This document shows positions 1 through 64,000 of a stretch of DNA of 64,000 nt, one piece after another. The DNA lies in assembly GCA_030522415.1 (NCBI GenBank), contig CM060115.1, positions 8,653,579 to 8,717,578 of the forward strand, read 5' to 3'. The notes beneath the pieces are model-generated. The model did not search any database and had not been told where the DNA came from. It saw only the letters and a list, made by a program, of their open reading frames with translations. This stretch comes from Channallabes apus (lineage: Eukaryota > Chordata > Actinopteri > Siluriformes > Clariidae). The translations under genes and the position numbers were made by a program. The first letter of the stretch is position 1. Every line of letters starts with the position of its first letter.

Positions 1-445
1 TAAAAATAATACGGCGATGTAGGGAGAGAAAAAAAAACGCTGCCACTACTGGGTTCACCCTCTGACTGCATGACGTCGGATTAAAGGGAGTTTTTTGTGG
101 TTTATGAAGAAATGCGAACATTTCCGCGCAAGTTTTATTTTTTAAGCATTTTATTTTTGCCTTTTTTCCGCATTTCCCTCTGTATAGCATGTAGGATCAT
201 GGGATATATCCGGTCCTCAGAAGCATAAAATGGACGCGGAGAAAACGAACTACAGTAGACACGGTTTCCTTGCGTTCGTTGGGATTTGAACGCCAAGAAA
301 AAGCTGCATGCAACGTTTTTTTAACACCGTATAAACACGCAGCCGGACAAACGCACGTCACCGAAGCCCGTGTGAACACGTCATTGACTCCTATGTGTAG
401 AAAACCCTCTGCGCTTCATCCGCGGTCACCGGACGCTACAAACGG
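1..445 (+). repeat. Interspersed DNA-transposon-like repeat, copy 1 (cut by window edge)
   Basis: This stretch is about 85-90% alike by eye to 48955-49496 in the same orientation. Shared landmarks are the tract after 'ctgggttcaccctctgac', the segment 'ggatcatgggatatatccgg', and the end 'cgcttcatccgcg'. Homology stops near 440, where a mariner relic begins. Short minus-strand reading frames in both copies are alike only because the DNA is alike. The outer motif GTTCACACnGGC recalls terminal repeats of non-autonomous DNA transposons, but the left end lies outside the window. Confidence 0.6.
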
Positions 446-1105
446 CAGAAAAACGGTCGAAGAGTATAAGCAAAAGCGTTTGGATATCTTCCAAAAAAAA
501 AAAAAACTGGACAGAGACTTTAAGGCAACTTAAAGAGAATCATTACTGGTGACGAGATGCGGATTCATCACTACAAGCCTGAGAATAAACGGCACAGTTT
601 GGAATGGGAACATCCTCAATCGCTGACCTAGAAAATGTTCAGAAGTCAACCATCAGCTGGAAAATTGATTGCTTACAGTTTTTTGGGATTTTTAAGGGCC
701 AGAATTGGAACATTATCAGGATGAAGGTTCAACAATCAACAGTGCTTGTTACAATGAGACGCTTATTGAAGAGCTGAAGCCTAAACTCTGGATTAAACCA
801 GAGGACTGCTATCCAAGGGCGTCGTGATCTTGTATGATGATGCACATCTGCACACTTCTGCCCACACTGTCGACTCTCTGCAAAATCTTAGTATTGAGGT
901 GTTAAAGCATCCTCCATATAGTCCAGATCTTGCTCCATTAGACTTTCACCTGTTTGGTCCCCTGAAAGCAGCCCTACAAGGACAAAGATTCACTTCTGAT
1001 AAAGACAGTGAAGACAGCGGTGCATTTGTGGCTCACAGCTCAGCCTGAAAGTATTTTTTAATGGGGGAATACGAAAGCTTGTAGACAGATGGACAAAGAG
1101 AAATA
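446..1105 (+). pseudogene. mariner-family transposase relic
   Basis: Conceptual translation gives fragments typical of mariner transposases: GDEMRIHHYKPENKR near 550-595 (family form: GDExWIHHYxPExKR, first catalytic Asp), then YDDAHLHTSAHTVDSL near 833-880 (second catalytic Asp in the DNARPH position), then HPPYSPDLAPLDFHLFGPLK near 910-970 (third catalytic Asp in SPDLAP). The fragments lie in different frames with stops between them, so the gene is dead. The N-terminal helix-turn-helix part is not recognisable; it may be replaced by the repeat ending near 440. It is a different family from the four mariner relics at 31.3, 37.2, 41.6 and 47.3 kb. Confidence 0.75.
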
Positions 1106-1831
1106 AATTAAGAGTGTCATTGTCAGCCTCTTATTCATTTAATGTTACTGTACATTACATTAATATACAGTATAGCGTCCAGTACACCAGCACATTTATA
1201 TAAAACACGTGCCCTACAGTATATGGTGCAACAGAAATACTTGTAAATCACTGAAATACTTTTTAAAAGAGATGCAATCCAGGGGTATTTGTAAACATTT
1301 CTGCTACTACCGAAGTCAAAAATCTGACTTGCTGCCATATTATACTGTATGAGTCACGCACAGTAAAATGATTGCTCTCTTGTTGCTTTGTCGTAGCATG
1401 CAGAGGGAGAAAAAAGGAGATAAGAGAGATGCTAAACTTGGCCTCCATTATAGATGCTCTCTACATCATTACCCATACGGGTCAGAACGGCTCTAGCATC
1501 TCTGGCTCTGGAAAAATCAATGCCTAATAGAGTGAAGAGGGGCAGGGGCACCTAGGGACATCCTCTGTACATGATACAAACTACCATTTTTCCAGCTATT
1601 GGTGACTCAAATATCACTATGTCTAAATATCGCTATGTCTAAATACAGGTATCGCTATGTCTCTGTCGCTATGTGTATGTACTGTACTTGCAGGGAATTT
1701 TATTTAATAATGGCAAAAATCATTCTGTCTATCACTCTAGACAATTAAATGCTGAGAACACATAATCATGTACTGTATTACTTAGTGTAATTAACGATGC
1801 TAATATAAGTGTAATGGTAATATAAAAAAAT
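1106..1831. other. No gene seen; footprint-rich spacer
   Basis: No coding potential is visible. Six TACAGTA/TACTGTA 7-mers fall between 1146 and 1777. A short degenerate run built on 'ctatgtctaaatat' lies at 1614-1675. Confidence 0.6.
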
Positions 1832-2047
1832 TTAAAAAGTCCCGAAATATGGCTGTGTCATCTGGGAACTAACAATCTGTTCATTCAGTACATTCAGGTC
1901 GTCAGCTGACTTCATTTTATTGCCACATACAGAGAGTTGTCCTGTGACCACTATGCATGATGGGTGCATCGCTTCATGCTCTTCCCTCCTTACCCTGATG
2001 TACCCTTCACTCTGGAATAGGGTCAATCTGGACTCATCAGACCACAT
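1832..2047 (-). pseudogene. Tc1-like transposase fragment (family E)
   Basis: The minus strand reads MWSDESRLTLFQSEGYIRVRR, the classic Tc1 block around the first catalytic Asp (WSDESxFxLFxxDGxxxVRR), then EHEAMHPSCIV and later KMKSADDLNVLNEQIV. Between HPSCIV and KMKSAD the usual GGGSVMVWGCF block is missing, so the copy is internally deleted. Related pieces occur at 40216-40450 and 45100-45165. Confidence 0.8.
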
Positions 2048-11625: not shown

Positions 11626-11891
11626 CTTATTATTATTATTATATTTCATATAATTAGTATTATTCATACATACAGTTGTGTGAAAAACTATTTGCCCCCC
11701 TCCTGATTTCTTATTCTTTTGCATGTTTGTCACACAAAATGTTTCTGATCATCAAACACATTTAACTATTAGTCAAAGATAACACAAGTAAACACAAAAT
11801 GCAGTTTTTAAATGAGGGGTTTTATTATTTAGGGAGAAAAAAAAATCCAAACCTACATGGCCCTGTGTGAAAAAGTAATTGCCCCCTGAAC

Positions 11892-12917
11892 CTAATAACT
11901 GGTTGGGCCACCCTTAGCAGCAATAACTGCAATCAAGCGTTTGCGATAACTTGCAACGAGTCTTTTACAGCGCTCTGGAGGAATTTTGGCCCACTCATCT
12001 TTGCAGAATTGTTGTAATTCAGCTTTATTTGAGGGTTTTCTAGCATGAACCGCCTTTTTAAGGTCATGCCACAACATCTCAATAGGATTCACGTCAGGAC
12101 TTTGACTAGGCCACTCCAAAGTCTTCATTTTGTTTTTCTTCAGCCATTCAGAGGTGGATTTGCTGGTGTGTTTTGGGTCATTGTCCTGCTGCAGCACCCA
12201 AGATCGTTTCAGCTTGAGTTGATGAACAGATGGCCGGACATTCTCCTTCAGGATTTTTTGGTAGACAGTAGAATTCATGGTTCCATCTATCACAGCAAGC
12301 CTTCCAGGTCCTGAAGCAGCAAAACAACCCCAGACCATCACACTACCACGACCATATTTTACTGTTGGTATGATGTTCTTTTTCTGAAATGCTGTTACTT
12401 TTACGCCAGATGTAACGGGACACGCACCTTCCAAAAAGTTCAACTTTTGTCTCGTCGGTCCACAAGGTATTTTCCCAAAAGTCTTGGCAATCATTAAGGC
12501 TCGTCTCAATTTTGCTAAAAAACAGCTCAATGTTCTTTTTGCTTAAAAGTGGTTTGCGCCATGGAAATCTGCCATGCAGGCCGTTTTTGCCCAGTCTCTT
12601 TCTTATGGTGGAGTCGTGAACACTGACCTTAATTGAGACAAGTGAGGCCTGCAGTTCTTTAGATGTTGTTCTGGGGTCTTTTGTGGCCTCTCGGATGAGT
12701 TGTCTCTACGCTCTTGGGTTAATTTTGGTCGGCCGGCCACTCCTGGGAAGGTTCCCCACTGTTCCATGTTTTTGCCATTTGTGGATAATGGCTCTCACTG
12801 TGGTTCGCTGGAGTCCCAAAGCTTTAGAAATGGCTTTATAACCTTTACCAGACTGATACAGTAGATCTCGATTACTTTTTTTCTCATTTGTTCCTGAATT
12901 TCTTTGGATCTTGGCAT
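11892..12917 (-). pseudogene. Tc1 transposase (family A), three lesions
   Basis: It starts at the ATG at 12917 (MPRSKEIQEQMRKKVIEI), the usual paired-like DNA-binding region. Lesion 1: a TACTGTA scar at 12857-12863; without the 5 bp CTGTA the frame continues IYQSGKGYKAIS as in intact family members. Lesion 2: a stop (TAG) at 12706-12708 in the linker after GRPTKINPRA. Lesion 3: a 2-bp loss near 12391, between WRKSN and FQKKN. The catalytic triad is still readable: LWTDET (first Asp), LQQDNDPKHTS (second Asp) and SPDVNPIEMLWHDLK (Glu), DD34E type. The C-terminus ends KGGPTSY. Total length matches the usual 340 or so residues. Confidence 0.93.
12857..12863. other. Tc1-type excision scar inside Tc1 transposase
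   Basis: On the minus strand GAGATC-TACTGTA-TCAGTC; deleting CTGTA gives ATC TAT CAG TCT GGT (IYQSG), the expected family sequence. So another Tc1 element jumped into and out of this one. Confidence 0.8.
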
Positions 12918-13298
12918 GATGTCTAGCTTTTGAGGTGCTTTTGGTCTACTTCTCTGTGTCAGGTAGCTCCTATTTAAGTGATTTCTTGATTGAAACAGGT
13001 GTGGCAGTAATCAGGCCTGGGGGTGACTACAGATGTTGAACTCAGGTGTGATAAACCACAGTTAAGTTATTTTTTAACAAGGGGGGCAATCACTTTTTCA
13101 CACAGGGCCATGTAGATTTGGAGTTTTTTTTCTCCCTTAATAACGTAAACCTTCATTTAAAAACTGCATTTTGTGTTCAATTATGTTATCTTTGACTAAT
13201 AGTTAACGGTTTTTGATGAGCAGAAACATTTAAGTGTGACAAACATTCAAAAGAATAAGAAATCAGGAAGGGGGCAAATAGTTTTTCACACCACTGTA

Positions 13299-14573: not shown

Positions 14574-15484
14574 ATGTCTACCGTTCAGCTTGTTCAGTGT
14601 GTAGAGTGCAGGATGTTTAGACATTCTTCCTCCGTCATTAGCGATAACTTTATTTGTGATAGGTGTGTGTTAGTGAACACTCTGACGGAGAAGATATCAG
14701 CGTTAGAGGAGCGCATCCAGACTTTAGAGAGGGTTAGACAGTGTGAGAGCAGTGTTATTCCCGTAGCGGACAGTCTGGGTGCCGCAGGCGGAGATAAACA
14801 GCCCCCGACTCCGGCATTAGAGCCCTCACAGCGGGGCGAGTGGGTGACGGCTCGGCGGCATACTCGTTCAGCCAAAGCTAACGCTAAGGCTAGCCCACCG
14901 GAGCACACCTCCTCTGCGCTTCACGTGTCCAACAGGTTTGCTCTCCTCAGTGCTGCACCCGCTGAGAAACCTGAAAGAGCTCTGGTTATAGGAGACTCTA
15001 TACTGAGACACGTGACATTAGCTAGACCTTTAGGGGCGCCAGCGGCAGTGGTTAGGTGTATCCCGGGAGCCAGAGCACCGGACATAGCAGGTAATCTTAG
15101 GGCTCTAGGACAGCACAGGTTCTCTAAGATAGTGGTACATGCTGGAGCTAATGATATACGCCTTCGTCAGTCAGAGGTTAGTAAGAGTAACTTTACAGAG
15201 GTGTTTAAATTAGCGAAGGCGATGTCCGATGAAGTAGTATGCTCTGGTCCCATCCCAATGAGACGTGGCGACATACTGTAGTTTACAGCAGGTTATGGTC
15301 GCTGAACCGCTGGATGTCCAGGTGGTGCTCCGAAAATAATGTGGGCTACATAGATAATTGGAAGACCTTTGAGGGCAAAGCTGGCCTGTTAGGGCGGGAC
15401 GGTGTCCATCCCACTCGGGAAGGTGCTGCTCTCATTTCCTGTAGTATAGCTCATAGTCTCAGTAGAGGTCTAGTTAATCGGTGA
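14574..15484 (+). pseudogene. LINE ORF1 with esterase domain, one frameshift
   Basis: It starts at ATG 14574. Residues 9-42 hold a Cys-rich PHD-like motif (CVECRMF ... FICDRC), then a coiled coil ([16 protein letters not shown]), a low-complexity linker, and an SGNH-type esterase: [11 protein letters not shown] (Ser nucleophile block) near residue 138, HAGANDIR (Asn block) near 190, and GRDGVHPTREG (Asp/His block) at the end. This layout is typical of CR1/L2 ORF1 proteins, thought to bind RNA and membranes or lipids. The frame is broken at 15274-15280 by TACTGTA; without CTGTA it reads RRGDIVYSRLWSLNRWM and continues to the stop at 15482. It is therefore a nearly intact gene killed by one 5-bp insertion. 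Confidence 0.9.
15274..15280. other. Excision scar breaking LINE ORF1
   Basis: GAC ATA-CTGTA-GTT TAC. The first break in ORF1 is exactly this 5-bp insert at a TA; removing it joins the two open frames (14574-15281 and 15239-15484). Confidence 0.85.
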
Positions 15485-17613
15485 CAATCCAGAGCCCAGG
15501 CCAGGGAGCAGACAGACAGGCTAAACCAACCGTATGCTAGCTGCATAGAGTCGTCACTCAGGGTTCACCATATTGAGACTTTGTCTGTTCCCCGATCTAA
15601 GCAAAAATGTAGAAAGACTCAGAAAGTCTGTTTCAATAATCTAATTAACATAAAGACCACAAACTCCGATCATACTGAATGCGCAGCCGGCACCTCTGAT
15701 CTGAAGCTAGGATTGTTAAATATTAGATCTCTCGCATCAAAAGCAGTTATTGTTAATGAAATTATCACAGATTAGGCGTTTGATATACTCTGTTTAACTG
15801 AAACGTGGGTTAAACAGGATGAGTATGTAGCTCTAAATGAAGCTAGTCCTCCTGGATACAGCTACATACACCAGCCTCGGTTAACTGGTAGAGGAGGAGG
15901 CGTACAAAAACACGGACACAAATTTAATTCATTTGAAATTCTTTATAGTAGCATAAGTGTACTTAAGTATATTAAGTCAGCTCAGTCGATTCCACTAATT
16001 ATAATTTACAGACCTCCAGGGCTGTATTCTGAATTTCTTAGTGAACTTGCAGATTTCATCTCAGACCTGGTCGTTTCTGTAGACAAAGTGTTATTTTGAG
16101 AATCCAGAAGACCCTCTGAGAACAGCATTTATGTCCATACTGGACTCAGTAGGCGTGAATCAGTGTCTAGTAGGACCCACTCATAAAGCAGGTCACACTT
16201 TAGATTTAGTAATATTCTTCGGATTAAGTATAAGAAATGTATTCACAATTCCACTGTCTGAAATTATCTCAGATCACTATCTTGTCTCCATTCAAGTGTG
16301 TCACAGTGATAATGTACGCACAGCACCGCGCTACCGTATTAAACGTACATTCACATCAACTACCACACAGAGTTTTATCAGTAATCTCCCAGAGTTACCA
16401 ACTTCGATTAGGCCACCGTCTGACCCCACAGAACTCGATCAGGCGACTGAATATTTAGAGTCGACATTTCGTTGTACCTTAGATAATGTAGCTCCAGCTA
16501 AAAGAAAAATTATTAGAGATAAGAAACTCGCTCCCTGGTATAACGATCACACGCGCACTTTAAAACAGACTGCTCGGAAATTAGAGCGTAAATGGCGTCA
16601 AACTAAATTGTTAGTATTTCAAATAGCATGGAAAGAGAGCATCCTGAACTATAGGAAAGCTCTTAGTGTAGCTAGATCAACGTATCTCTCCACTCTTATA
16701 GAAGAAAATAAAAATAATCCTAGATTTTTATTTAATACCATAGCCAAATTAACCAGAAATAAGACCACTACAGAAATCTCCACAACAATATCATGCAATA
16801 GTGAGGACTTCATGAACTTTTTTAATAATAAAATTGTAAATATCAGGCATAAAATTGAGGCTTTGAAACTGAACAATGTAATTGATACAGATGTTAACCT
16901 AGCCATGTCAGATTCAAACCTAGAATACTTTACTCCCCTTGAAGAGAATGAACTAATTTCACCGATCTCTTCTGCAAATTCATCAACCTGTATTATAAAT
17001 CCTACACATTTTCTTAAACAGATAGTACCAGTAATAACAGAACCGCTGTTGAGATTAATTAATTCCTCACTCAGCATTGGTTATGTTCCAAAATCTTTAA
17101 AATTAGCAGTTATCAAACTAATAATTAAGAAACCTGACCTCGACCCCTGTCAGCTGTCCAATTACAGGCCAATATCAAACCTCCCCTTTATCTCTAAGAT
17201 TCTGGAAAAGATAGTAGCGGAGCAGCTATGCTCATATCTACATAGAAATGGCATACATGAACTGTATCAGTCAGGATTTAGGCCTCATCACAGCACAGAA
17301 ACAGCACTCGTTAAAGTAGTAAATGACCTCCTATTGGCCTCTGATCAGGGTTGTGTAACTATGCTTGTATTACTCGACCTCAGTGCAGCTTTTGACACCA
17401 TTGATCATGCTATTCTTCTTCACAGATTAGAAAATGTAGTAGGAATTAAGGGTACAGCTCTCTCCTGGCTCAGATCCTATTCGACCGATCGTTATCAGTA
17501 TGTAGATTTAAATGGTGATTATTCTGCATCTTCTCTAGTGGAGTTTGGCGTTCCGCAGGGTTCAGTTTTAGGCCCACTGCTTTTTTCCCTTTACATGCTT
17601 CCTCTGGGCAACA

Positions 17614-17620
17614 TACAGTA
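17614..17620. other. Excision scar breaking LINE ORF2 just before YADD
   Basis: AAC ATA-CAGTA-ATC CGT. Without CAGTA the frame runs LGNIIRKHGISFHCYADDT, as expected for the family. Confidence 0.85.
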
Positions 17621-18064
17621 ATCCGTAAGCATGGTATTAGTTTTCATTGTTATGCTGACGACACAGTTATATGTCTCAGCAAAACCTGATGAGAAAAACC
17701 AGCTTACTAAAGTTGAGCAATGTGTGCAGGACATAAGAAATTGGATGCTAATTAACTTCCTTCTGCTTAATCTGGATAAGACAGAAGTTCTAGTCATAGG
17801 ACCGCATACAGCTAGGAGTAAAATCTTAGATCACACCATAACTTTAGATGGCCTTTCTGTTCCATCAAGTGCAACAGTAAAAGACCTCGGCGTGATTATA
17901 GATTCCAGCCTTTCATTTGAAGCTCATGTAGATAATATCAAGATAATGATATCGGTTGGCAAGATAAGAAATATATTGTCGCTAAACGATGCAGAAAAAC
18001 TAGTTCATGCTTTTATCACTTCTAGGTTGGACTATTGTAATGCCTTACTGTCTGGTTGTTCAGC

Positions 18065-18071
18065 TACTGTA
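18065..18071. other. Excision scar breaking LINE ORF2 C-terminus
   Basis: TCA GCT A-CTGTA-GG TGC ATA. Without CTGTA the frame runs LSGCSARCINKLQLVQNAAA, joining the open frames 17631-18080 and 18056-18484. Confidence 0.85.
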
Positions 18072-19504
18072 GGTGCATAAACAAGCTTCAGCTAGTCCAG
18101 AATGCAGCAGCGAGAGTCCTCACTAGAACCAGAAGATATGAGCACATCACCCCTATCCTATATTCACTGCATTGGCTCCCTGTGAAAGTTCGCATTGATT
18201 TCAAAATACTACTCTTGACATATAAAGCATTAAATGGTCTCACCCTGCAGTATCTGAGCGAACTGCTAATGTCTTACGATCCGCCACGCCTACTTCGATC
18301 AAAGGATGCAGGCTGCTTGTCAGTACCGCGTGTTATGAAAACTACAGCTGGAGGCAGAGCTTTTTCTTACAAAGCCCCAAAATTATGGAATAGTCTTCCA
18401 AATAGTGTTCGGGACTCAGACACAGTCTCAGTGTTTAAGTCTAGGCAAAAACCTATTTATTTAGCCAAGCATTTTTATAAATAGATTTGCCTTAGGTACA
18501 GTAAAGGAGTAGATCTGGGGGACTCATGGACATAGAGTATTATGGTGAACTGATATGTTTAGATGCTGTCTTCTTCACTCTCATTTGATCACTCAGGTTT
18601 GTTGACGGTGAGGTGATTGTTTGCTTTACATCTCAGGGAGCCCTCATGTTTGTGTTTCCTTCTGGCTCTCCCTTTTAGTTATGCTGTCATAGTTAGTCCT
18701 GCCGGAGTCCCTGCTTGCACTCTACAGTAAATATACATTCACATTATACATTATGTGACTGTGACCATACCTAACTGCCATCTCTCCTCTTCTTCTCTTT
18801 CTCCCCCTCTTTCTCTTTCCTCTCTCCCCCGTCTCCCCCTTTCAGTCTTTCTCTCTCTCTCTCTCTCTCTCTGTCGAGCTACACATGTCATCCCTGAGCT
18901 GCCAGTGATCCAGACTCCCTCTGCCCTCCGGACCTGTCTGATCCATCCTGGTGCCCCGCTTCTGGTTGGAGGTCTCGTCGCATGGATGCCCCGTGTGTCT
19001 CTTTGGGATGCGTCTGGTGTCTGGGGATGATTCTCTCTACTTAGAAGACGGTTCTGGCCTCGACTGGTGTTGTCAGCTGTTTCTCTGAGGACTTGACAAT
19101 TCGATAGTTCAGGACTGGAACTTTCTACAAGTCTATCTGAGTCTCCAATAACTACCTGGACTCCATTTTAACATCAATTAACATCAACTATTATAGATGA
19201 ACTGCCTGCCACCTAACACTGTATAAATGCAGATCATTTCCTGCTATCTGTTTCACCCAGATGAGGATGGGTTCTCTGTTGAGTCTGGTTCCTCTCAAGG
19301 TTTCTTCCTATTACCATCTCAGGAACTTTTTCCTTGCCACTGTCGCCCGCGGCTTGCTCACCAGGGACTATCTGAACATTTTGATTCATACACATTCACA
19401 TTCCATACAAACTTAAATAATTCTTTTGATTGTGTAAAGCTGTTTTGAGACAATGTCAATTGTTAAAAGCGCTATACAAATAAAATTTAATTGAATTGAA
19501 TTTA

Positions 19505-22512: not shown

Positions 22513-23920
22513 ACTTTTCTAAATAAAAAAAATAATAAAAAAAGAGAGAGAGAGAAAAGTTTAAGCATAGGGAAGAGTAAACAGGCCACACGGCACGGTG
22601 TCAAAGCTCGCGGTTTACAAATAATTTTAATGGTAATGCAATTTAGAAAAAAAAAACAGCGCTTGCTTTCCATGGCCTGTCAGCAGGGGCGTACGAACGG
22701 TAAAAACAAAAAAAAAAATCAACTGTGTGGGAATAATACAGCTTTACTTGAGACATTAGACAAGCAATTTGTTCCCTGACTGACTTTACCCAGGATGTTT
22801 TTCCTCATAATTTACCTTATTTAAAGCAGGTCCAAGAGTCAGTTTTTACTTGACAGCTACTGTACTGTATATTAGCTTTGTGCTTTAGTGCAAAACGTAA
22901 TAAAATAACCAAAAAAAAAAAAAAAACCTTTGTCCTTAGACTACATTCAAGCAACAGAGAGAAGCAAATAAGGAAAAAAAACCCTGTAATGAACAATGAA
23001 AAGAAAAGTGGCCAGTTACTGTGTGAACTATACAAAGGCAGACGTAAAAAATGCTATATACTGTAACGAAGCCTAATTTGCTCTGCCTCTCTGTTGTTTC
23101 TGTTCAAAGCCTCAGTCTTTATTAGCAGCTGATCCGTTTACTATCGACTTCACATCTCTTATCCCTTGTACTATTGCTGCCGTATATATTGCTTTTTTAA
23201 ACGGCAAGCCGAAGAGGTTAAATTACATCCTGCAGTATCTCTGAGGCCCATTTTACAGCAGATATTAACATACAGCTCAGCATTACGCACACACAATGCT
23301 CACATCCTTGCATTTACACCTGCTATTAAAAGCCCATGCGTCTGGCCTATTTGCGAGCGGATGCTGGTTTTCGCTCGCGTTACATGGACGCCAATTACTG
23401 TAAAAGAGCAAAGTGCATACAGTATGCATTAGGTACCAGACAGAGGCATGAATCACTGAAGTAGCATTTATGAAAAAAAAAAAAAAAAAAAAACACATGA
23501 TACATCCATCAGAAAGCTTGTGGGAAACAACTGGTTAGTGATTCTAAAGGTATAGGCTTACAGTATGCTAGCTGGGAGCATAACGCGTAAAGATCAGAGC
23601 TGTAATACAGTTATGTACTGTATGTAATCATGTTGCAATGACGTGCTTTTGAAAGTTAGACTCTGATAATGTAAAAAAAAAAATCATAAAAGTTAAATGT
23701 AAATGATAAAATGACGTTGCGGTAACGTTGAATGAACGATCCAAACACAAAGTTGCTATTTCAACCTTAAAACAACAAAATGTTAACCTTTATTTGGAGC
23801 ATTTATGTCAATTAACATTTATTCGCACTACACTACAGTACGCCTCATCATATCCATGATCCCTTACGGTACATTTCTAAAATTCTGATTGGAGATCGGG
23901 ACAGATACAGTACAACAGCT
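22513..23920. other. No gene seen; poly-A runs and footprints
   Basis: A-rich runs lie at 22911-22926 and 23474-23492. Footprints include a tandem pair TACTGTACTGTA at 22858-22869. Region 23090-23420 is less AT-rich, with 'cgctcgcgttacatgg', and may be older unique sequence. Confidence 0.45.
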
Positions 23921-24472: not shown

Positions 24473-24725
24473 CATGTAGTCAACGTTGTTCCAAAGTCAT
24501 TTCATCAAAGTTTCAATAAAAACCTAATACCTACAGTAATACCTTCCACGGCCCGTAAGGTTGCTGGATTAAAATCACTGCCGTTTTGACGACCAGAAAT
24601 TCCTGCCGGGATTTGTTTAAGTTGCTAAACAGCATTATAATTAGCTAGGTACAGTAATAGCTAAATACTGTAATGAAAGTCAATTCACTGAGTTGATAAA
24701 TAATATTTTTTATTCTATTCATGTA

Positions 24726-25665
24726 CAGTGCCATGACAAACACATTTCCATCTTCCTTTTTTATGTTATATATATTTATCACATTTAAATTATGGAAATC
24801 AAACTATTTTTAATATTACACAAAGATTAAACAAACCTACCCGGCCCTAAATAAAAGAGGAATTGTCCCCTTACTACTGTGATTTCTGGAAAGCTTAAAA
24901 GAGTTAAATTTCACTCAAACCTGATTACTGAAAAACCTTTTAACCACTTAAATAAAACTGTTTGACAAAGTGAAGCTCAGCACGATCTAAAGAAATTCAA
25001 CAAAGGATGAAAAACAAAGTAATTGACATGTATCAGTCTGGAAAGGGTTGCAAACTTGTAACAGTGGAGAACCTTTCCAGAAGGAGCCAGCCTATCAAAA
25101 TTGCTCCAAGAGCGCAACGAGGACACATCCAGGAACTTACTGTATAGAAGAACCCAGGACAACATCTAAAGAACTGTAGGTCTTACTTGCCTCAGTTAAG
25201 GTAAGTGTTCATGATTCATCAATACCAAAGAGACAAAAATGGAAAAATACCATGGAAGAGTTCCAGGGTGAAAGCACAAAAAGGCTTGTCTCACATTTGC
25301 CAAACATCTTGATTATCCTCACAACTTTTGTGGACTGATGAGACAAAAGTTCAACTTTTTTGGAAGTTGTTCACATCATAAAAAGGACATCATAGGTACG
25401 TAGCGGTAGTGCGAAGGTCTGGGGCTGCTTTGCAACTTCAGAACCTGGACAGCTACATCAGCCATAACTGATGTAAGTATAAATTCTTCACTGTACTAGG
25501 AAATCCTGAAGGAGAACGTCCTGCCATTAGTTTGTGACCTCAAGCTCAAGCGCACTTGGGTTATGCAGCAGGACAATGATCCAAAACACCAGCATCACCA
25601 AGTCCACCTCTAAATAACTCAACAAAAAACATCATTATGGTTTTGGAGTGGCCTAGTCAAAGAGC
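24726..25665 (+). mobile_element. Tc1-like element relic (family B)
   Basis: The left end is TA + CAGTGCCATGACAAACAC (24724 on). Transposase pieces on the plus strand include MYQSGKGCKLVTVE-type DNA at 25030-25075, 'gtggactgatgagacaaaag' (WTDETK, first Asp) at about 25330-25350, 'cagcaggacaatgatccaaa' (QQDNDPK, second Asp) at 25567-25586 and 'gagtggcctagtcaaag' near 25650. The third acidic block and the right end are missing. A scar at 25138 lies in the transposase region. Like family A it begins with CAG. Confidence 0.85.
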
Positions 25666-27402
25666 AGGTGACCTTTTATTCTGTGTGTGACTGCAAAATC
25701 TGTAATAAAAAACCCTGATGACATATGAGCACATCAGAACAGGATGAGCTATAAACATTTATCAAATCCTGCAGCTCTAATTAAGTAAGTGCTGACTTCA
25801 CTGGAGTATCACTAAGCTGTGATACTCTAGCCATAAGGCACACAAGACATCATTGTCTTTTTCAGACAGGAACGCTTCTACAGTATGCAAAAAAAAAAAA
25901 AAAAAGTGTAATCAACACAGTGTCCTATCTTTACCGCTGATGTGTTTCCTCAGCTCTGTGTCGGATGCCTCTTTGTGTGAAAAAAGACGGTGTTTTTCAT
26001 GCTTTGTTAGATGCACATAATGCACCAGGCTCAGATGGTTATTTTTTTCCTCAGCGTGATGCAATTGCACATACTCCTTCTGTCTTATTTTTATTACATA
26101 TAAGGAAAAACGTCCCATCTCTTTCCATCTCCACTAATTATTACCGAGGCAAGAAGACGCATGTGCTACTGTAGAACTCTTTCTGACAGCATTCATGGCA
26201 CATAGCGAAAACAAGTGATTATTATTATTTTTTATTACTGTGAATAGGTAAAAAACATGGTGCATTATTATTATTATTATTATTGCAGCTAGTTTTCTCT
26301 GGTTGGAAGAACTGCATTCTGAGTTCTGCAAAGAAGAAAGAATTTGGTATTTTATACAGTAATGTATGACCCCGTTCCAAAGCATAAAGATCCTTGACAA
26401 ATACTAATATGAGCCACCAGACGGGTCTAACAGAGGACACAATGCCTTATTTTACTCAGCAGCCTCAAGAGTCGTCTCGAGTCTTAAATCAGTAGCATTG
26501 CACAGCTACGCCATTATCACCATCCAACCAAAAACATCCCATGGCTAAGTCATTATCAAAGGCTAATCGAAAAAAGTCCCTTGGCTACACTCATCAACAG
26601 GCAGTAAAACGTACCCCATTGGTACGCTATCCCAACAGTACTGGCTACATCAATCGTAATCTGACCCCCAAAAAAACGAGGCAACAAAAATGAGTCCTAC
26701 TGTAGCAGCAAGGGATCACCCCAAAGTAATTGTCCTACTGATGGCTTCATTAAAGACCAAGCAGTGACCATTAAGCATAAATGACTGACTTAAATCCTAT
26801 TAAAACCAAAGAAATAAAGCTTTAAAGGTTAAAAATAAGCTTTATTTTTAACCTTTATTTATCTGGCTTCAATTCAAGATTCAAAGCCTTTCAAATGGTG
26901 CCATTAGAGCTGCTGAAATATTGGCTTATGCAAGCACAGGGGCATGTAAACAGCGAACGTGGTGTTTGGTGTGACAGTTGGGTGTCCAGAGGATGGGACA
27001 TTTCTGTTAGTGGTCTGTTAGTGGAGGGCTGGGTGGTGATTAATGTTTGCACCTTTTCACACAAGCTTTTAAAAATTTGTCATTTTTCAGAAGGACAACA
27101 ATAATTAACGAAGCTGCACCAGGAACAACAGGCGGCAAATATAACAGTGGAGATTGTAATCCTGCAAAAACATACACAGGCGTTTCGGAATGCAAATAAA
27201 ATCAATTATTTCCTGTTTGTGGCAAAAGTGCACAGTCAGGTATGTTTAACAAGAGAGTGGGATACAACATCGTATCAATCAAGCTGCTGCATATGAAACC
27301 ATGACTCTGAGCCAATCCTGCTTACCGCAATGAGAAATCCAGGAAAAAAAATACTTCAGTGTAGGAAAGGATAAGAGGAGTGGTTTTGTGGAGCATGTTA
27401 TA
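25666..27402. other. No gene seen
   Basis: Unremarkable AT-rich DNA with A-run 25888-25905, short (ATT)n at 26219-26230 and 26264-26284, and footprints at 25879, 26167, 26355 and 26698. No footprint between 26704 and the minisatellite. Confidence 0.5.
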
Positions 27403-31580: not shown

Positions 31581-32146
31581 TTGACAAATTCCTGTGTAGT
31601 CTATGGGAAAGAGAAGACTTCAGGTTGTGCAGTATACAGGAATATATATAGGAATTATCTTCCTACAACTGCATGTGCTTTATTTCTAACATGACCCAGA
31701 ACATTAAACAAACCCTTACAAATGATCAACTGTACAGTATGTACATCCAATAGCCTTTAGTTTCTCTTTGTTAGTCTTTTTTTTTGGATCAAAAAATGAC
31801 TGGAGCACGTTTTCCCCTTGCAAACCGAGAAACTCTTTCAACCCTTGAAAATGGTGTTCATAAAATCATCTGATCATCATTTAATTCATATTACAAAAAA
31901 CTTCAAAACTAGGCATAGGGTTAAGAATAGTAATTAACCCAAACACAAAGAAAGTGCCTAAATTAATTTTTTTGGACAAATAAGGGTACAGACAGCTGAA
32001 CTGATGTTTTAGATAAGCATTTCTAACGTCCTTGAATTTTCACTTTCAGAACTAAATGGAGAAAAAAAGTAAAGGCTTAATTCTAATATTAAACTCAATA
32101 ATGAAGGACCTTTTACATACAGTACAGTAATAAATGAGAACGATCT
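31581..32146. other. No gene seen
   Basis: AT-rich DNA. A tandem scar TACAGTACAGTA lies at 32118-32129. Confidence 0.5.
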
Positions 32147-41626: not shown

Positions 41627-42041
41627 GGGTGTTCGAGTCAAACCGAGACTTTTGATTGCGCAGAATAACAGAACACAGTTCTGAGAACTCATTTTATTTC
41701 TCTACAGTATATAATCCCCTGCTACACTAATGCGCTTATCCCAGTGTTTTACTAGTGCTTGAATACCCTCAAGGTAGAAAGTTTTCTCAGGACTTATTTT
41801 CTCAAACACTGGCCCCCCAGGAACTCCTTTAATGGCCCAACCATGTGGAAATGCCTTGGAGTGAGGTCTGTATGGGGGATGTAGCAATAACTCCCAGACG
41901 ATTTCCTGGATGAGAATCTCATCGTAGTACTGCGAGTACTCTTAGTCGAAGTCTTCTGTATAGTCTTCTGTAAATGTCAATCGTTTCTTCCCGTCATTCA
42001 AGTGAGATTTTATCACAAGTCCTGTTTTGGCTTGAACGCCC
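41627..42041 (-). mobile_element. mariner relic (family 2, copy 3) with both ends
   Basis: Left end TA + GGGTGTTCGAGTCAAACC (41627); right end complement 'ggcttgaacgccc' (42041). The minus strand encodes FYLEGIQALVKHWDKRIS and VAGDYI, the C-terminal motif of mariner transposases, plus a decayed 'ggagttcctgggg' block. Internally deleted. The scar at 41703-41709 is absent from the three sister copies. Confidence 0.85.
41703..41709. other. Excision scar with three unscarred paralogues
   Basis: 'ttctctaCAGTAtataatcc' here; the complements of 37466-37481, 31549-31560 and 47573-47590 read 'ctctatataat', 'ctctatatagt' and 'ctttatataat'. The only difference at the site is the 5-bp insert at a TA. 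Confidence 0.9.
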
Positions 42042-43419: not shown

Positions 43420-43550
43420 TACCGGGGTACACCCTGGACAGGGAGCCAATCCATCACAGGGCACACACACTACGGGCGATTTGGAAATGGGAATTGCAGT
43501 AGCCTAATCTGCATGTTTATGGACTGCGGGACATGCAAACCCTCGATCAG
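43420..43550 (-). repeat. SINE (main family) fragment
   Basis: 'ggggtacaccctggacaggg', 'agccaatccatcacagggca' and 'tctgcatg' match the SINE body on the minus strand. Confidence 0.8.
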
Positions 43551-45756: not shown

Positions 45757-47295
45757 GATTTATACTCTTGATTTCTTTCATAATGCAACTTCAGTAAGTG
45801 TTTAATCTTTGATCTTAATCATTCAAATTTTTTTCTTTGGCGAAGTTCAGTTCAACACCATACTTCCAGGATTTAATAATACATCAGAGAGTTATTTCAG
45901 TAATTTCAACTCTCCTTTTCTTTTGTTCCTTTTGTGAAAAAATATAATCCCCTTAGTTGCTTGCTACACTTCTTCCTGAAAGGTTATGAAACTGTTCTGA
46001 AAACATAAGCGACGCTGCGGCACCCAAAGCACTCGTATTAATAGATCATGTCAAGAGGTTCGACACAACGTGCACAGATGGACCAATGCCAGTACAGTAA
46101 GTGTACACCGGTATGGAAGGTGAGTCTGATGTAATAGCACCTTGGCTAATACTTCTTGCTCTAATGTGTAATCATCCTGTAGATATATGTGTAGAAACGA
46201 GCTCAAAGGATTATCACTGAGTAACACGAGCCTCATTATTCACCAGTCACACACAACACTGGATATAATAAAGCTCCACCGAAGGGACGGACAAAGAGAG
46301 ATGAAGTGGAGACAGATGAAAGAGCGTGTCACCTGACTGAAAAACAAGGGAGAATAGAGAGAGAGAGAGAGAGAGAGAGATTGGTGATAAGAAGAAAGGA
46401 GAGATGTACAGTACTGTAGGAAGAGCAAAGAAATGAACATATGCTGAAAAGAGCAAGGGGAAAAAAAACGAGAGAAACATCAGTATGTAGAGGGAGACGG
46501 AGAGAGAGAATGAAAGGAACTAAAGCAAGAATGCCAATACAGAAAACCTGAGAGACATATGAAGAGAAATAAACATACACACAAAAGGATGGACAGAAAG
46601 ACAGGAAAAAGACGAGTACAGACATCAAAAGAATTCTAATGAGACGATGGACTGAGAGGAATGTGAGTGAATAAAAGATGCTGAAAACAAAAAAGAAAAA
46701 GATGAAACATCGTATAGCTTAAAGAGGAAAATGTGACATCAGACTGGAAGGATAGTTGAAGAATTCACTTCTGGGAAAAGACAAAGACAAATAGGGCAAG
46801 GTGAGGACAAAGGGATGGGAAAAGAGAGAGAAATAAAGTTACAGTCGTCTGACACACAGTTAAACATCTCATTTTGAGCAGTTTTAATGGACGATAGATG
46901 AACGCAGGAGCACTGATATCATTAATTAGGGTTGCCAGGTTTGAGTCCAGCACAAATGCATTATAGAATAACCAAGTAGACCTATAATTTCAGGCACTGG
47001 GAAGGAAAGACATATTTTTCTCATTTTCCTCAGCCTTTGCATGGGAATGTATATTTATATTGATTTAAGTAATTCTCATTTCTTATATCGAAAATATTCA
47101 GGCAGCCACAGATTATTCGTATACCAACTGCCATAAAATACATGGACCTGGCAACCCTATTATTAACTGTCCCCTCCATTGATCCTTTACCGGAAATATT
47201 TGCAGATAGAGCAAAGGGCAGAGTGATTAGTACCCCAATGAGACGATTGGCACTACTCGCAATTCCAGTTATGACCACAGGGTGCAATAACACAA
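45757..47295. other. No gene seen; long purine-rich tract 46265-46830
   Basis: The plus strand is dominated by A and G across more than 500 bp, with (GA)n at 46351-46381. Minus-strand Ser/Leu/Phe-rich frames here are compositional. At 46928-47160 two copies of 'gggttgccagg' and its complement 'cctggcaaccct' (46928 and 47149) bracket about 230 bp and could be ends of a small unclassified MITE. Confidence 0.5.
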
Positions 47296-47668
47296 GGACG
47301 TTCGAGTCAAACCGGGATTTGAGTCAAAGTTCTTGAGAATGAAGGTGTAAAACAGATTAACATTTACAGAAGACTTTAACCCCAGTACGGTGATGAGACT
47401 CTTAGTCGCCGTAAAACATTTAAACTGCATTTCCACATCTTTGGACCATTAAAGGAGTTCCTGGGAGGCCGGTGTTTCAGACGTGAAGCAGGCAGTCTGG
47501 TCATGGTGCCGGCATACTCATGGTATCCAAGCACTAGTGCAAAGCTGAGATAAGTGCACTAGTGTAGCAGGGGATTATATAAAGAAATAAAGGTTGTTGT
47601 TACAGTAAATCTCAATAACAGTGTTCTGTCATTCTACGCAATTAAGTCCCGGTTTGACTTGAACACTG
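47296..47668 (+). mobile_element. mariner relic (family 2, copy 4) with both ends
   Basis: Left end 'gttcgagtcaaaccgggatt' and right end 'cccggtttgacttgaac' are inverted repeats. Inside: 'aaggagttcctgggaggccg' and 'agcaggggattatata'. A scar lies at 47601. Strongly deleted. Confidence 0.85.
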
Positions 47669-52330: not shown

Positions 52331-52353
52331 TCACTGATACTGTATACTGTACT

Positions 52354-53544: not shown

Positions 53545-53798
53545 TGACCTGTTTCTATTAGGGTTGATAGTATTATGATATTTGTCTGAAACATGGTATA
53601 TTATATAATATGTTGCCTGCTTCACTTTACTTTGTTGATAGATAATTCTTAGAATCATTCAAATGATTCAGGAATCATAAAATAAACCTTTAGGATTTAA
53701 TTCAGTACTTGAGTCTTCATAGTAAATTTAATAAAATGATGTAGATTAAATGAAAGAAATGGGAACAAATATTTTATTGTCAGCTGAAAAGTACCTAA

Positions 53799-53927
53799 AG
53801 CAGCAACCTCATTTCCCCTCTCGTCAGTTCGAACCAGTGAGAAACAGGAGCAGGTTATACAGTAAGAGATGATCAGTCTGAATGCTGAGTGGTTGGAACA
53901 GACGAGAGGGGAAATGAGGCTGCTGCT
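53799..53927. repeat. Foldback (hairpin) element, 129 bp, complete
   Basis: Left arm 53799-53838 begins 'agcagcaacctcatttcccc'; right arm 53886-53927 ends 'ggggaaatgaggctgctgct'. The arms pair over about 40 bp with a few mismatches around a loop of about 50 bp. Confidence 0.9.
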
Positions 53928-56051
53928 CTATTCACTAATCTGCCGGATCTCAACGAGACACAAAAAAAGTCCTTCAGGAAGCCTTACATAAGTTCACTTC
54001 ACTAAAAATGCTCCACCTCCGGTTATTTTAGTTTTATTGTCAGAAACACAAGAAGCTCCAACTTTTTGTATTGCTATTGTATTGTATGTACAGTACTCGA
54101 GGAAACACATTTGGATAAAAGTGGTATCTGTGCTCTTAGGCATGCATGATTGACAGTTTATGGCTGGCTTGTGATTTCGTGGCTGCGATCTCTTGACAAC
54201 ATGGTTGATGCTTTTCTGTTTTGCCACTCTGGACTGAAAACGAGTGGCTCAAGTTATCATTTAACCCCTTAAAAGGTGGCAGTGCACTTGGATTGGAAAA
54301 ACGCTAAACTTTAACCTGCTGATTCAGTATTGCTGAACATCATATGTAAAGAGTGGAAGCCAAATCTCTTCACCTACAGTATGCTAGAATACAAAGTTAA
54401 ACTTTTACGCTAATAGCCACCTGGCGCAACTGGCGGAAAATAGTTCAACCTTGGCAAATAACAGTGTCTTTTCCTGTCATCCGATGTCCATCTGGACAAA
54501 GCCCCTTGGCTGCAGAATTATCCAGTTCATTATTTGGCTCATAATGGGCCTCAACATCGCAGCCTTCCACCCTTAAGCGCATTGCTTTTATGTGCTTAAT
54601 TAATAACCAGTGATGGTTAAGAGAGCACTTAGTATTCACACAAACACAGAGACCACGGTACAGCTCACATCTACAGTATCCGTGCATGCTGGAGTCCCTT
54701 CTGCATGCGATTTGCCGAAAGGAAATGCAAATGAATGCGAGGCTTAAATACATAATTCATGCAGCATATGTACAATTTAGGCCCGTCTGATCGTCTCTGG
54801 AGGGCGACCCGGATCGCTTCGCGTTCACGGTTCACCTCTCGGAGACCCCGATGATCTAATGTGTTCATTTAAAATGCGAGTGTAGGTGTAAGCGGTGATA
54901 TCCATCATGATATACAAATCCCCTGTACACTTTGTGGTACTAATACTGTAGAGGACACAGCAGGAGGAATCGCTTATCGAGACGGATATGAATGGATTTG
55001 TTCATAAAACGCTTGGAGGCCACAAACGGGGTATTCGTGGAAAGTGGAAGATTTGGAAGAAATATAAAGTTCTTATATTTTATGATTTCTTCATCGGGTC
55101 TCAGAGCTCCCCGAAAGTGTGCGATGGGGTGCGTTTGTGTATTAATGCTCCAGCTATTGACCTCCTTTTCCAAACATGCCGTTTCAGTTTCTATGTAAAT
55201 GAGCTCCAGGAGGAGGGGCTTTTCTTATATGAGGTCACATTAGGGGGGAAATCTAATTGCCTTGCAATGTCACAATGGAGATTCACCTTGAAACGGCACT
55301 TCAAAGATCCTCTTTAAGCTTGCACCAATTAGTGACATTTATTCCAATCACAGACACGAACTTAAAGAAAATACTTTTAACCTCAGTCATCAAAGCAATC
55401 CAAATCCCTGAATGTAAATCAGCGGTGCTGCGAGCAGCAGCGAGAGTCTCCCTGCAAGTTCAACTTTCTAGTCATTAGCACAGAACCTTAACCTAAGTCA
55501 CTGTTACTCTCACACTGCATCTATCTCTCTCTCTCTCTCTCTCTCATCCCTCTGCCCTGCTCACGCTGTGATCGACGACCATGTGTGCCTCCAACATCGA
55601 TCGCCCTCATGGCATCTAGAACGACAGCCATTCACACAAAAACAGACCTTCACTCCATGTCGAGTCAATTTGAACAGGTTATGACTGTCGTTCCAAATCA
55701 TGCGAGATAGCAGATAGCTGTAATAACTTACTGCTTGAGAAGCAGAAAAAAGAAAGTACTGCTCACTGTAAAATTTACAGTACAATAGCGATAGTACGTA
55801 TATAGAAAATCAATGGGCTAATTGGCTTCGCTCTTCAAAACTGCTGCATAAATCAAGTTTATTTTCAGTGTTTACAGGATCTTAACAAGATTTGAAGCAA
55901 ATAAAATTATTATGTAATATATATACAGTACGTTTCCACATAGTCGTAGCTACATGATAATAATCAACTATAAATAGCCATACGAATTTGCAAGAGACAG
56001 ATTTTTGCTTATAATTAGCAAGAGACAGATTTTCAGGTATTTTAATATAAT
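53928..56051. other. No gene seen; candidate conserved non-coding DNA 54440-55440
   Basis: 54440-54870 and 54970-55440 are non-repetitive with balanced composition ('cttaagcgcattgcttttat', 'cttatatgaggtcacattag', 'gtcacaatggagattcacc'). Scars are sparse: none from 54951 to 55775. A CT-rich run lies at 55524-55544. Confidence 0.4.
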
Positions 56052-56530: not shown

Positions 56531-56551
56531 TAAATATGCATAAAAGGCATG

Positions 56552-56659
56552 AGCCAGTGAGAAACAGGTGCAGATGATGACAGATGATCAGGCCGGTGAT
56601 TAGTAAGCTGGTGATGCGGAGTGGTTGGAACAGACGAGAGGGGAAATGAGGCTGCTGCT
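56552..56659. repeat. Foldback element, right part
   Basis: It contains 'gccagtgagaaacaggtgca' and the right arm 'ggttggaacagacgagaggg' through 'ctgctgct' (56659). The left arm is truncated. Confidence 0.85.
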
Positions 56660-56904
56660 TTAAATGTTATGTAATATTCCCATTTCTTTAATTTAATATA
56701 CATCATTCAAAAATAGTATAGCAGGCAACATAGTACATATTATGCATTTTTCAGATAGAGTTCCCAAAAGAAACTTTCTTAATAAATTTGTACAAAGTGT
56801 AACGGAGACAATTAATTGTTGTACACTAATGTACAATGAGTGTAAAGTAAACTAGAGTATGTGTTTTGGAAATAGACAAATAAAAATGTCTACACTTCAC
56901 TTTT

Positions 56905-61285: not shown

Positions 61286-61329
<44 letters not shown>

Positions 61330-62111
61330 TTCGTCTTGTTTTCGGTTTTGACCTAGGCTTGAGCCACAGCTTCCAGCAAAAACCCTGCAGTCCCAATTAC
61401 CGAGCTTCTTGCAAAATCAGGCACAAGGGTCTGAAAGTCAGCAACTGTGAGAATGTTGGACTTGTCCGCACCACCACACACAACGCCGTGCATTTCCGTT
61501 TCACGAAATAAAAGGCCTCTCAGTTGTGTGATCATTACCACACAACACTTTTTTTTTTTCACACACAGAACATTAAGCTGACGATCCTGCTGTGTACGTG
61601 ACAGAACGTGCTGGACGTGGTGATACTGTGTTAGACTCGGATCCAGGCATGAGGTGGGACGACTGGTGTGGACTGTCAAGAGTAAAAAGAAACGGTTTTG
61701 CACTGAATTTTTTTTTCATCTCTGTAAACAAGCCGTGAATTGCTACGACAATTGACCTACTGCACCTAATTAGGGCGAATGTTATAGCGGGACACTGGAT
61801 GGACAAAACGAGATCGTCCATCATATTCATGTAGACCGATTAACCATAATTGTCCGCTAACAGGTGAAGTGAAACAACACTGATCACCAACTGTACAACA
61901 GAGACAACTGGTGACAGGATCATGTCAGGACCAAAGGCCAGTCTGTCCATTCCGATCCCACGGAAAAGCCAGTGCAGCACATCGATGCTGGTTGTGATAG
62001 AAAGGCACCAGAACACGTAGTGCACCACAACCTGGTGTGTACAGGCCCCATCAAGCATCAAGCAAAAAAAAATGGCTTCCAAACTCCCCAGACCTCCACC
62101 TGATCAGAAAT
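60092..62111. other. No gene seen; several simple repeats
   Basis: (TAA)n at 60274-60330, T-run 60181-60199, (GA)n 60884-60921, (CT)n 61290-61327. Block 60545-60880 is less AT-rich and purine-biased. No scar from 60931 to 63113. Confidence 0.5.
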
Positions 62112-62284
62112 GGAGCGTGGGGTAGCTCAGTGGTTAAGGTCAAAGGTCAAATCCAACAACCACCAAGTTGTTCATGTTGGTCGCTTGAGCAAGACTCTTC
62201 ACCCTCAACTGCTCAGATGTATAATGAGATAAAAATGGAAGTCGCTCTGGATAAATACCTAAATGTAAAAGGGAATATGTGCTA
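62112..62284 (+). repeat. tRNA-derived SINE, third family
   Basis: Head GTGGGGTAGCTCAGTGGTTA, body 'ttgagcaagactcttcaccc', 3' end 'gaagtcgctctggataaata' + 'cctaaatgtaaaag'. B box decayed. Confidence 0.85.
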
Positions 62285-64000
62285 GAAAAACAAGTCTGAT
62301 CCACAGAGGCCCCAGCACCCAAATCCTGGTGCACAGAACAGCACACTTCCGAAGGCTCTGCGGAGCCACACCAGGGTCTTTGGGACAAAACCTTGGTGGT
62401 TTTATTATTAATGGGGGGCCTGGAACCATTTACTTCCCTGATTCTTCAGTTTGTCTCTCTGGTGGACTCGAATAACCTTTTAAAGGTTTCCACAAACAAC
62501 AACTTCAGTTTACTTAAACCATTTCCTTTGTAAAGAACTCTACTTTGTAAAAACTGTCACCATTTACTAGCTGCTATTAAACGATACCTTTTGACCTGTA
62601 GGTTTAAAAGCAAGCATGTGGCTCCTCATAGACACACAAAGGAACTCCTTTTTTCAAAACTACTATAAACACTTCCTATCCTGCAATAATGAGTTGAAAG
62701 ATGCAAGTGAAAAACACAATAAACAATGACTTGGTAATGAAACAGTGGCCCAAATGGATAAAGTTCACGTCAGGACCATCGTTGTTAAGTCCAAGACAAG
62801 GAGAAGCCAAGATCAAGTAAAGACCAAGTATTAAGATTGTCAAAACCAAGTCTAAATAAATATGAAAGTGAATCAAGATTCGAGAAATTCCAATTTTTAT
62901 GGCTATGTTTGTACTTACATGTAGGTTTTTGGAATTTGGCAGGTGACTTTACCACGAGTGCCTTACGTGGATCTCATTCAACATCTGGCCAAATTGTCCT
63001 TCCTCAGACGCTCCAAGGATGGTAACTTGGTGGTGCTGAGATTTGAACCCATGCCCTTCTGAAAGGTATGCCAACATCCCAACCACTGTCCTGTCCCTGC
63101 CCCCCACTTCAGCTACTGTAGTTTCTAGAAATATGAATTGCTTTTTGTTACACCTTGTCAAGACCACGTCCATATTTAGTCCATGTCCAATTTATATCCA
63201 ACGTCCAAGTCTGACATTTTTACGTCCAAGAACATGTGCTGTTTTAGGCACGACCAAGTCCATATACAAAACATCTCAAAACTGGACACAAGTCCACTTT
63301 CTGACTCAAGTCCTACAAGTCTAGAACAGAATGAACAAAACATGGATACTTAACATGGAAGAGGTGAACTTAGGTAATCTAAGCAATGACAGGATGGAGG
63401 TGCAGACAGGCGCTAGAACTGGAATCAAAACACACACATGTTGTTCATCACCTTGGAACCTCCAACATGAAGAGGAAAAACCTTGACAGAAGAACAATCT
63501 TAGATTTCCGACTTTGGTTGGCGGATTTTTAACCTGAGTTGATGCTACTGGGACATCAATATAAAGATACCGTACTGTATATACACAAGCTCAAATATTT
63601 CTTTGGTCTTAACGTTACGGAAATCACACATGGATTTACATTCTTTCTCTCTGTGACGTGACAAAGAGCTTGCTGCGCAAATTAAAACAGAGCGGCGACC
63701 ACTGGGTGTCTTTTTAATAACCGTCACCATAAAACACTGCGTAAGTGACAACTCGGAACATGGAAACAATCGACCAGGACAAAACTATAGAGACGAAGGA
63801 CAGCTTCCCTGCCAATAACACTAATTCCTGCACCCAAGACAGCTCGACTGCCGGCAGGCGGGCGTTAATCTAATCTGTGTGTGAGACTTACTTTCTCCAG
63901 GAAATCCGTTCGGGGACCTGACGAAGGGAGGAAGAAGCAGCGGCGCCGCTGAATCTCAGCTCTTTTCTACGGCAAGCGACATGCATGTGCTTGTACTGTA
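62285..64000. other. No gene seen; SINE relic 62980-63105 (minus)
   Basis: At 62980-63105 the minus strand has 'ggggcagggacagtggttgg' and 'gggttcaaatctcagcacca', a decayed third-family-like SINE head. Repeated 'ccaagtc' phrases at 62785-62860 and 63160-63320 form a loose low-complexity tract. Splice-like signals near 63900 are unresolved. Confidence 0.4.

Follow-up and report, generated by a model that had tools for sequence, protein, structure and literature searches.

A large excess of TACAGTA and TACTGTA in a Channallabes apus genomic window very probably records the excision of CAG-ended Tc1-type transposons

Introduction

The question raised by this locus is why one seven-base word should be so common in it. 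The locus is a 64,000-nucleotide stretch of the genome of the clariid fish Channallabes apus (assembly GCA_030522415.1, contig CM060115.1, positions 8,653,579 to 8,717,578 of the forward strand), here called the window, and the word is TACAGTA together with its reverse complement, TACTGTA. A first-pass annotation of this DNA had attributed the word to Tc1-like transposons, each departure leaving a 5-bp scar at a TA dinucleotide. The present analysis points to the same answer, and most of the excess copies are very probably (with a probability of about 0.93) excision footprints of CAG-ended transposons of the Tc1/Sleeping Beauty type. All of the evidence comes from this one 64-kb window and from proteins of other species.

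Under the proposed mechanism, an element would insert at a TA and duplicate it. On its departure the transposase would cut the non-transferred strand three bases within the element, so that both donor ends carry 3-nt 3' overhangs (CAG). End joining would then pair C with G and G with C around an A:A mismatch, settled as A or T, and the product, TA-C(A/T)G-TA, would be 5 bp longer than the TA present at the start. The choice of A or T in a footprint is made through repair of the A:A mismatch. The Sleeping Beauty transposase cuts three nucleotides inside the element to give 3-nt 3' overhangs, which end joining turns into a footprint (PMC7827188). CAG ends give a TAC(A/T)GTA product (PMC3432063), and the published Sleeping Beauty footprints are TACAGTA and TACTGTA (PMC3432063, PMC4378557).

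Results

Enrichment of the motif

An exact count of the window gave 72 copies of TACAGTA and 54 of TACTGTA (251..64000, no strand assigned; first at 251, last at 63994). The total of 126, or about one per 508 bp, agrees with the approximately 126 counted by hand in the first-pass annotation. Markov models fitted to the raw window predicted 12.4, 9.5, 12.8 and 17.8 copies at orders 0, 1, 2 and 3, respectively; the earlier expectation of about 14 falls inside this range, and the GC content of about 37% assumed with it proved slightly low against the 40.1% obtained from base counts. Orders 4 and 5 predicted 41 and 88 copies, models of these orders already holding most of the 7-mer itself. With the motif collapsed before an order-3 model was fitted, 100 simulations yielded 10.2 ± 3.2 copies with a maximum of 20, and the enrichment over Markov-matched sequence that had been proposed as a check was thus present within the window (Poisson P for 126 copies about 2e-89). 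Depending on the null, the excess over chance is some 108-117 copies; about 115 in 64 kb corresponds to some 1.8 per kb, or one per 550 bp, and chance alone should account for about 10 of the 126.

The same word stood out against other words of its kind. The other 419 strand-merged 7-mers with the composition of the motif averaged 9.4 copies, and the runner-up among them, ACTGTAT (74 copies), overlaps both the motif and a 34-bp minisatellite. When tandem repeats and short runs were masked, the motif headed all strand-merged 7-mers with 120 copies against 48 for the next, and among the 32 strand-merged TANNNTA words TACAGTA reached 126 against 27. The 72:54 split between CAG and CTG forms did not differ from equality (binomial p = 0.13), which fits the A:A mismatch step, from which roughly equal numbers of the two would be expected.

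Five-nucleotide insertions in transposon reading frames

The position of the motif in coding sequence was studied using a purpose-written frame-aware DNA-protein alignment of transposon remnants in the window with homologs from Anabas (P0001 and P0241), Silurus (P0002), Pangasianodon (P0243), Xenopus (P0121) and Erpetoichthys (P0127). Five motifs lie in decayed transposon coding sequence, three of them in a long interspersed nuclear element (LINE; 15274, 17614 and 18065), one in Tc1 family A (12857) and one in Tc1 family B (25138), and all five coincided with a frameshifting 5-nt insertion relative to the proteins of other species. The placement was exact in at least one alignment for four of them, the insertion at 25138 merely overlapping the motif. 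At none of the 22 other TANNNTA words in well-aligned coding stretches did any alignment place a 5-nt insertion; one such word, at 15279, merely overlaps a footprint.

In the LINE, the footprint in open reading frame (ORF) 1 (15274..15280, plus strand) was an exact 5-nt insertion against P0241 and was shifted by three bases against P0243, and it was the sole frame change observed in that ORF. The first footprint in ORF2 (17614..17620, plus strand) was exact against both P0001 and P0002; here the LINE reads LPLGNIQ and then a stop, while P0001 has LPLGNIIRKHG. The second (18065..18071, plus strand) was exact against P0001, the one usable protein at this point as P0002 does not have the following stretch, and the collapsed sequence reads GCSA joined to RCINKLQLVQN. 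The LINE has further clear lesions: 2 nt are deleted at 17663, the frame changes near 16088-16092, and a single stop stands at 15773. Footprints therefore make up three of the five clear frame-changing indels in the one copy examined. Two further frame changes near the 3' end were seen against P0002 only.

On the minus strand, the footprint in the Tc1 A transposase (12857..12863) was an exact frameshifting 5-nt insertion when set against either P0127 (91% identity) or P0121 (95% identity), and the same motif was also a 5-bp gap against the DNA of family B. The motif at 25138..25144 (plus strand), in the Tc1 B transposase remnant, is a probable footprint, the overlapping 5-nt insertion being ambiguous in placement at 52-55% identity.

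Comparison with paralogous copies

Each motif, either intact or collapsed to TA, was then taken together with 25 bp on either side and compared, ungapped, with all other parts of the window; a partner was accepted at an identity of at least 75%. Partners were found for three of 125 motif sites (251, 12857 and 41703), in all three cases solely when the motif was collapsed. A random draw of 125 control TANNNTA sites from 307 found partners for seven, all of them solely when intact. The Fisher probability calculated by hand is 1/120, several of the controls sharing repeats and so not being independent.

The footprint at 251..257 (plus strand) is polarised by a paralog near 49293 (88.5% identity, 288 columns), where GAACTACAGTAGACACGG in the scarred copy stands against GAATTAGACACGG. 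Similarly, 41703..41709 (plus strand) has GGATTATATACTGTAGAGAAATAAA where the copy at 47427-47666 has GGATTATATAAAGAAATAAA; comparison with a third copy (37276-37546) showed no simple 5-bp gap at the motif. A probable footprint at 47601..47607 (plus strand) is a 5-bp insertion at TA relative to the copy at 37287-37544, at 72% identity and with the alignment to another copy unclear. A further footprint, point-mutated to TGCAGTA, lies at 43495..43501 (plus strand) in a repeat resembling a short interspersed nuclear element (SINE), where this copy has AATTGCAGTAGCC and six others, at 5106, 11518, 22331 and 45583 and on the reverse strand at 40809 and 56245, have AATTAGCC. Since a mutated scar in one SINE-like copy is set against six empty copies, the direction of the change is insertion. 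Taking coding and paralogous comparisons together, a homolog was available for 13 of the 126 sites; eight of these were 5-nt insertions, three were not and two were shared.

The flanks carry a target-site palindrome

The flanks of 125 of the 126 sites were aligned, the last site being too close to the end of the window. No consensus run was present beyond 3 bp on each side, and there was no inward terminal repeat. Position -19 was skewed in isolation (T 51, A 41, G 22, C 11; 0.09 bits, equal to position -3), perhaps by chance among some 40 positions. Reading outward from each TA, the flanks favoured Y at +1, R at +2 and T at +3, that is, the palindrome AYA-TA-TRT. The two-sided flank score was 3.27 for the motif against 2.50 for the 307 other TANNNTA sites (Mann-Whitney p = 5.6e-8) and 2.63 for all 4,433 TA dinucleotides (p = 1.6e-8). 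Isolated motifs (n = 93, more than 30 bp from another copy) averaged 3.25 and the 301 controls 2.50 (p = 3.4e-6), with frequencies relative to control TANNNTA of 0.57/0.46 for Y at +1, 0.64/0.48 for R at +2 and 0.42/0.31 for T at +3; the +3 position taken singly was weak (p = 0.075 against TANNNTA). The target consensus of Tc1 is AYATATRT (PMC9635669), and that of ZB is ATATATAT, the targets of Sleeping Beauty and Bari being called very similar (PMC7913693). The flank pattern matches the Tc1 consensus and resembles that of ZB, and a palindrome of the Tc1 target type supports the footprint reading.

It could be that the footprints were left by a CAG-ended element outside Tc1 proper, for example one of the pogo type (Passer, Tigger). 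Some Tigger-like ends start with TACAGT, as listed in a table for Rhodnius (PMC4678618), and Passer leaves footprints of 0-4 bp (PMC9976928). The Passer target, however, is AAGTACTT (PMC9976928), which would put T at +2. The motif flanks do not fit this palindrome, T at +2 being scarcer than around TA dinucleotides overall (0.21 versus 0.33) and A and G being enriched. No pogo domain was found among nine ORFs scanned in Pfam, a small sample. Taken together, a pogo-type origin carries little probability.

Alternatively, the 7-mer could have been copied along as part of repeat families, such as the ends of an abundant miniature inverted-repeat transposable element. Some sites are or may be of this kind: the motifs at 52338 and 53858 are common to two copies of one repeat, and that at 5385 lines up with a copy near 58321 with no 5-bp gap. 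However, neither an inward terminal repeat nor any consensus run outside the 3-bp palindrome is present in the 125 flanks, and all five coding-sequence motifs are insertions relative to proteins. Repeat-family origin was rejected as the main cause on these two grounds and is considered very improbable. The repeat that holds the motifs at 52338 and 53858 has an inverted-repeat core (52279-52346, 53783-53943 and 56551-56707), and two of its copies share TATACAGTA, so that here the motif is either older than the copying or part of the repeat.

A strongly enriched 7-mer could also reflect a bias in base composition, or a functional motif under selection such as a factor or microRNA site. The microRNAs miR-101 and miR-144 both start with UACAGUA. 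The 5-nt insertions contradict both. In addition, 7-mers made of the same bases average 9.4, the two strands are not significantly different (72:54), the word interrupts the reading frames of dead transposons, and its flanks bear the signature of a transposon target. We attach next to no probability to either.

Spacing of the motifs and nested scars

Spacing across the window was near exponential (Kolmogorov-Smirnov p = 0.16). Bins of 2 kb contained between 0 and 9 copies, and no gradient was evident. At short range the motifs were clustered, with 17 gaps of 30 bp or less against 7.2 expected, and insertion preference is a possible cause. Examples of these 17 close pairs are 1146/1166, 8678/8698 and 23396/23418, and several are inverted and about 20 bp apart. 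A bias towards inverted pairs was considered and set aside as unconvincing, CTG followed by CAG being present in 7 of the 17 against about 4 expected, by eye. One motif, at 51189, lies 8 bp past the end of a degenerate tandem array (50754-51181; 33-bp unit, 13.5 copies).

Three pairs of motifs share one TA, where 0.25 would be expected under random placement (p = 0.002). These are at 22858..22869 (minus strand; TACAGTACAGTA, or TACTGTACTGTA on the plus strand), at 32118..32129 (plus strand; TACAGTACAGTA) and at 46407..46418 (plus strand; TACAGTACTGTA). Such nested scars would arise if an element inserted into an existing scar and then excised again, and their presence supports the footprint reading.

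The clustering bears on another possibility, that the scars are real but local, this region or nearby donors having seen unusual Tc1 hopping and the genome-wide density being much lower. Sleeping Beauty re-integrates near its donor in 30-80% of cases, with windows of up to 15 Mb (PMC7827188), and the short-range excess of close gaps is in keeping with this. On the other hand, spacing at the 64-kb scale is near random and has no evident gradient. We regard a purely local burst as unlikely.

Age of the scars

In the masked window, the 20 words one mismatch away from the motif occurred 211 times against 167.4 expected from an order-2 model (1.26-fold), the motif itself being raised about 14-fold (120 against 8.7); the table for the raw window gave a smaller one-mismatch surplus. 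Transitions (71 against 57.2) and transversions (140 against 110.2) were raised alike, by about 1.25. Since decay should favour transitions, part of this surplus is taken as model misfit. If all 44 surplus copies were attributed to decay, the scars would have diverged by about 6% on average (44 / (111 x 7), a hand calculation). As a rough inference from a crude test, the scars look fairly young.

Resident transposons and other repeats

Tc1 family A (11671..13298, minus strand) is flanked by TA duplications and has 218-bp terminal inverted repeats (90% identical) starting with CAGT. It encodes a decayed DDE transposase on the minus strand, with a DDE_3 match in Pfam. Tc1 family B (24724..25800, plus strand) is strongly decayed, with a left end of TA-CAGTGCC and an undefined right end. 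That both families start with CAG, as the first-pass annotation had it, is correct, TA-CAG being found at 11671/11673 and 24724/24726. Both elements are broken, and no intact donor was seen in the window. Families A and B are candidate rather than established sources of the scars, given that the three bases left in a scar are too few to identify its donor and that B is heavily decayed. A piece of the family A transposase (11892-12530) matches a Xenopus tropicalis protein at 96% identity over 94% of the ORF and polypterid proteins at 97% over 79%, which suggests horizontal spread of this family. Elsewhere, an inverted repeat of 217-223 bp (88%) at 19286-21517 encloses about 1.8 kb with scraps of Tc1-like transposase on both strands, and is possibly two insertions of one repeat and not the ends of one element.

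The LINE (14574..18484, plus strand), which we take to be of the L2 type, has an ORF1 that is SGNH-hydrolase-like by its homologs and an ORF2 with a reverse-transcriptase domain, and bears the three coding footprints described above. Anabas and catfish sequences were closest to it among the matches listed, and its ORF2 protein is 84% identical to Anabas testudineus P0001 against 72% to Silurus P0002. The greater closeness to Anabas could reflect horizontal transfer or the position of the host.

Two 34-bp minisatellite arrays, at 27486-28763 (about 38 copies) and 30170-31274 (about 33 copies), are inverted and about 1.4 kb apart. They hold none of the 126 motif copies but many of TACAGTG, and the raised count of the latter is largely due to this minisatellite. 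In viral contigs, the Tc1 terminal pattern and the repeat-core pattern had no matches, and no relative of the Tc1 transposase or the LINE reverse transcriptase was found. In genome contigs the repeat-core pattern had three matches, all in bacterial records (L001-L003), which were not used.

Discussion

Within the window, the first-pass claim of 5-bp Tc1-type scars at TA is borne out by interrupted reading frames, by paralogs that match when the motif is collapsed, by the flank palindrome and by nested footprints. Several observations pull the other way. The homolog comparison covers 13 of the 126 sites, of which three lack a 5-nt insertion (1678 is a 1-bp difference from its partner, and 5385 and 19578 are substitutions with no 5-bp difference) and two, 52338 and 53858, are common to two copies of one repeat; among the eight insertion calls, two (25138 and 47601) depend on weak alignments. 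Insertions of 5 nt also occur away from the motif, at 25456-25461 in the badly decayed Tc1 B (against both proteins) and at 12408-12413 in Tc1 A (against P0121 only), the latter beside a 4-nt insertion and probably alignment noise. In redundant paralog alignments, 22 of 218 gaps were five long by hand count, and while 5 fell at the motif and 6 at a mutated scar, 11 had neither. Tc1 remnants are at least three (A, B and a fragment near 19505-20260) with a weak match at 809-988, a lower bound from a search by fetched transposases and self-comparison only; none is intact and no donor was seen. Finally, among the words tried, other products of joining CAG ends were at most about twofold raised, with small counts (for example, TACACTA 12 against 6.4), and repair here thus seems to have been mostly canonical. 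Footprints of 0-4 bp have been reported for ZB (PMC7913693) and Passer (PMC9976928). The scars presumably arose in the germline, whether in one wave or through steady activity.

The mouse genome is 2.7 Gb in size. In it the two 7-mers occur at more than 300,000 places (PMC4378557), which amounts to about 7 copies per 64 kb against the 126 found here. The footprints described for Sleeping Beauty in engineered cells and mouse tumours are the same two 7-mers with the same 5-bp net gain at TA (PMC4378557, PMC3432063, PMC10138897), with estimates of 153, 139 and 8 in three tumours (PMC4378557). Those footprints, however, come from an introduced transposon, whereas the scars here, roughly 550 bp apart on average, are found in natural sequence.

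Among fish elements, the AT-palindromic target of zebrafish ZB (PMC7913693) fits the flanks seen here, where a CAG-ended family A with transposase remnants is present, and Tc1/mariner elements make up 8.8% of the channel catfish genome (PMC5953449). In their available text these studies survey the elements in residence or test one that was cloned (PMC7913693, PMC5953449), whereas scars were counted here; the catfish paper has the word 'footprint' once, apparently for the elements themselves (PMC5953449). In Caenorhabditis elegans Bergerac strains with a Tc1 expansion, the AYATATRT target matches the flank signature, but that work deals with added Tc1 copies and 'footprint' is absent from its main text (PMC9635669). 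A comparison of Asian and African rice likewise sought DNA-transposon excision footprints in natural genomes and reported 238 and 249 recent transposition events in the complete genomes of the two (totals from its Table 2), with footprints that were often complex (PMC4423477); here, by contrast, 64 kb hold about 115 excess copies of one canonical scar. Single excision footprints are well known and of a textbook kind, and it is the density that appears new: no report of a natural genome with such an excess was found among the open-access matches listed, a scope outside which most subscription papers fall.

In the window, then, about 115 excess scars stand against at least three recognised Tc1 remnants and one weak match. 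We infer a similar density beyond it. The chances are slightly better than even that, genome-wide, Tc1 scars are the commonest class of small insertion and the main reason why recently dead transposons lose their reading frames, that they outnumber recognisable elements by well over 10:1, that transposition is recorded mainly by scars unseen in repeat annotation, and that a count of the 7-mer and the 3 bp on each side of it could be used as a cross-species meter of past activity. If some 1.8 scars per kb held across a genome of an assumed 0.7-1 Gb, more than 1 million excision events would have been retained. The scars would then be a largely hidden mutational class, and a count of the 7-mer and its flanks would measure past cut-and-paste movement without any surviving element.

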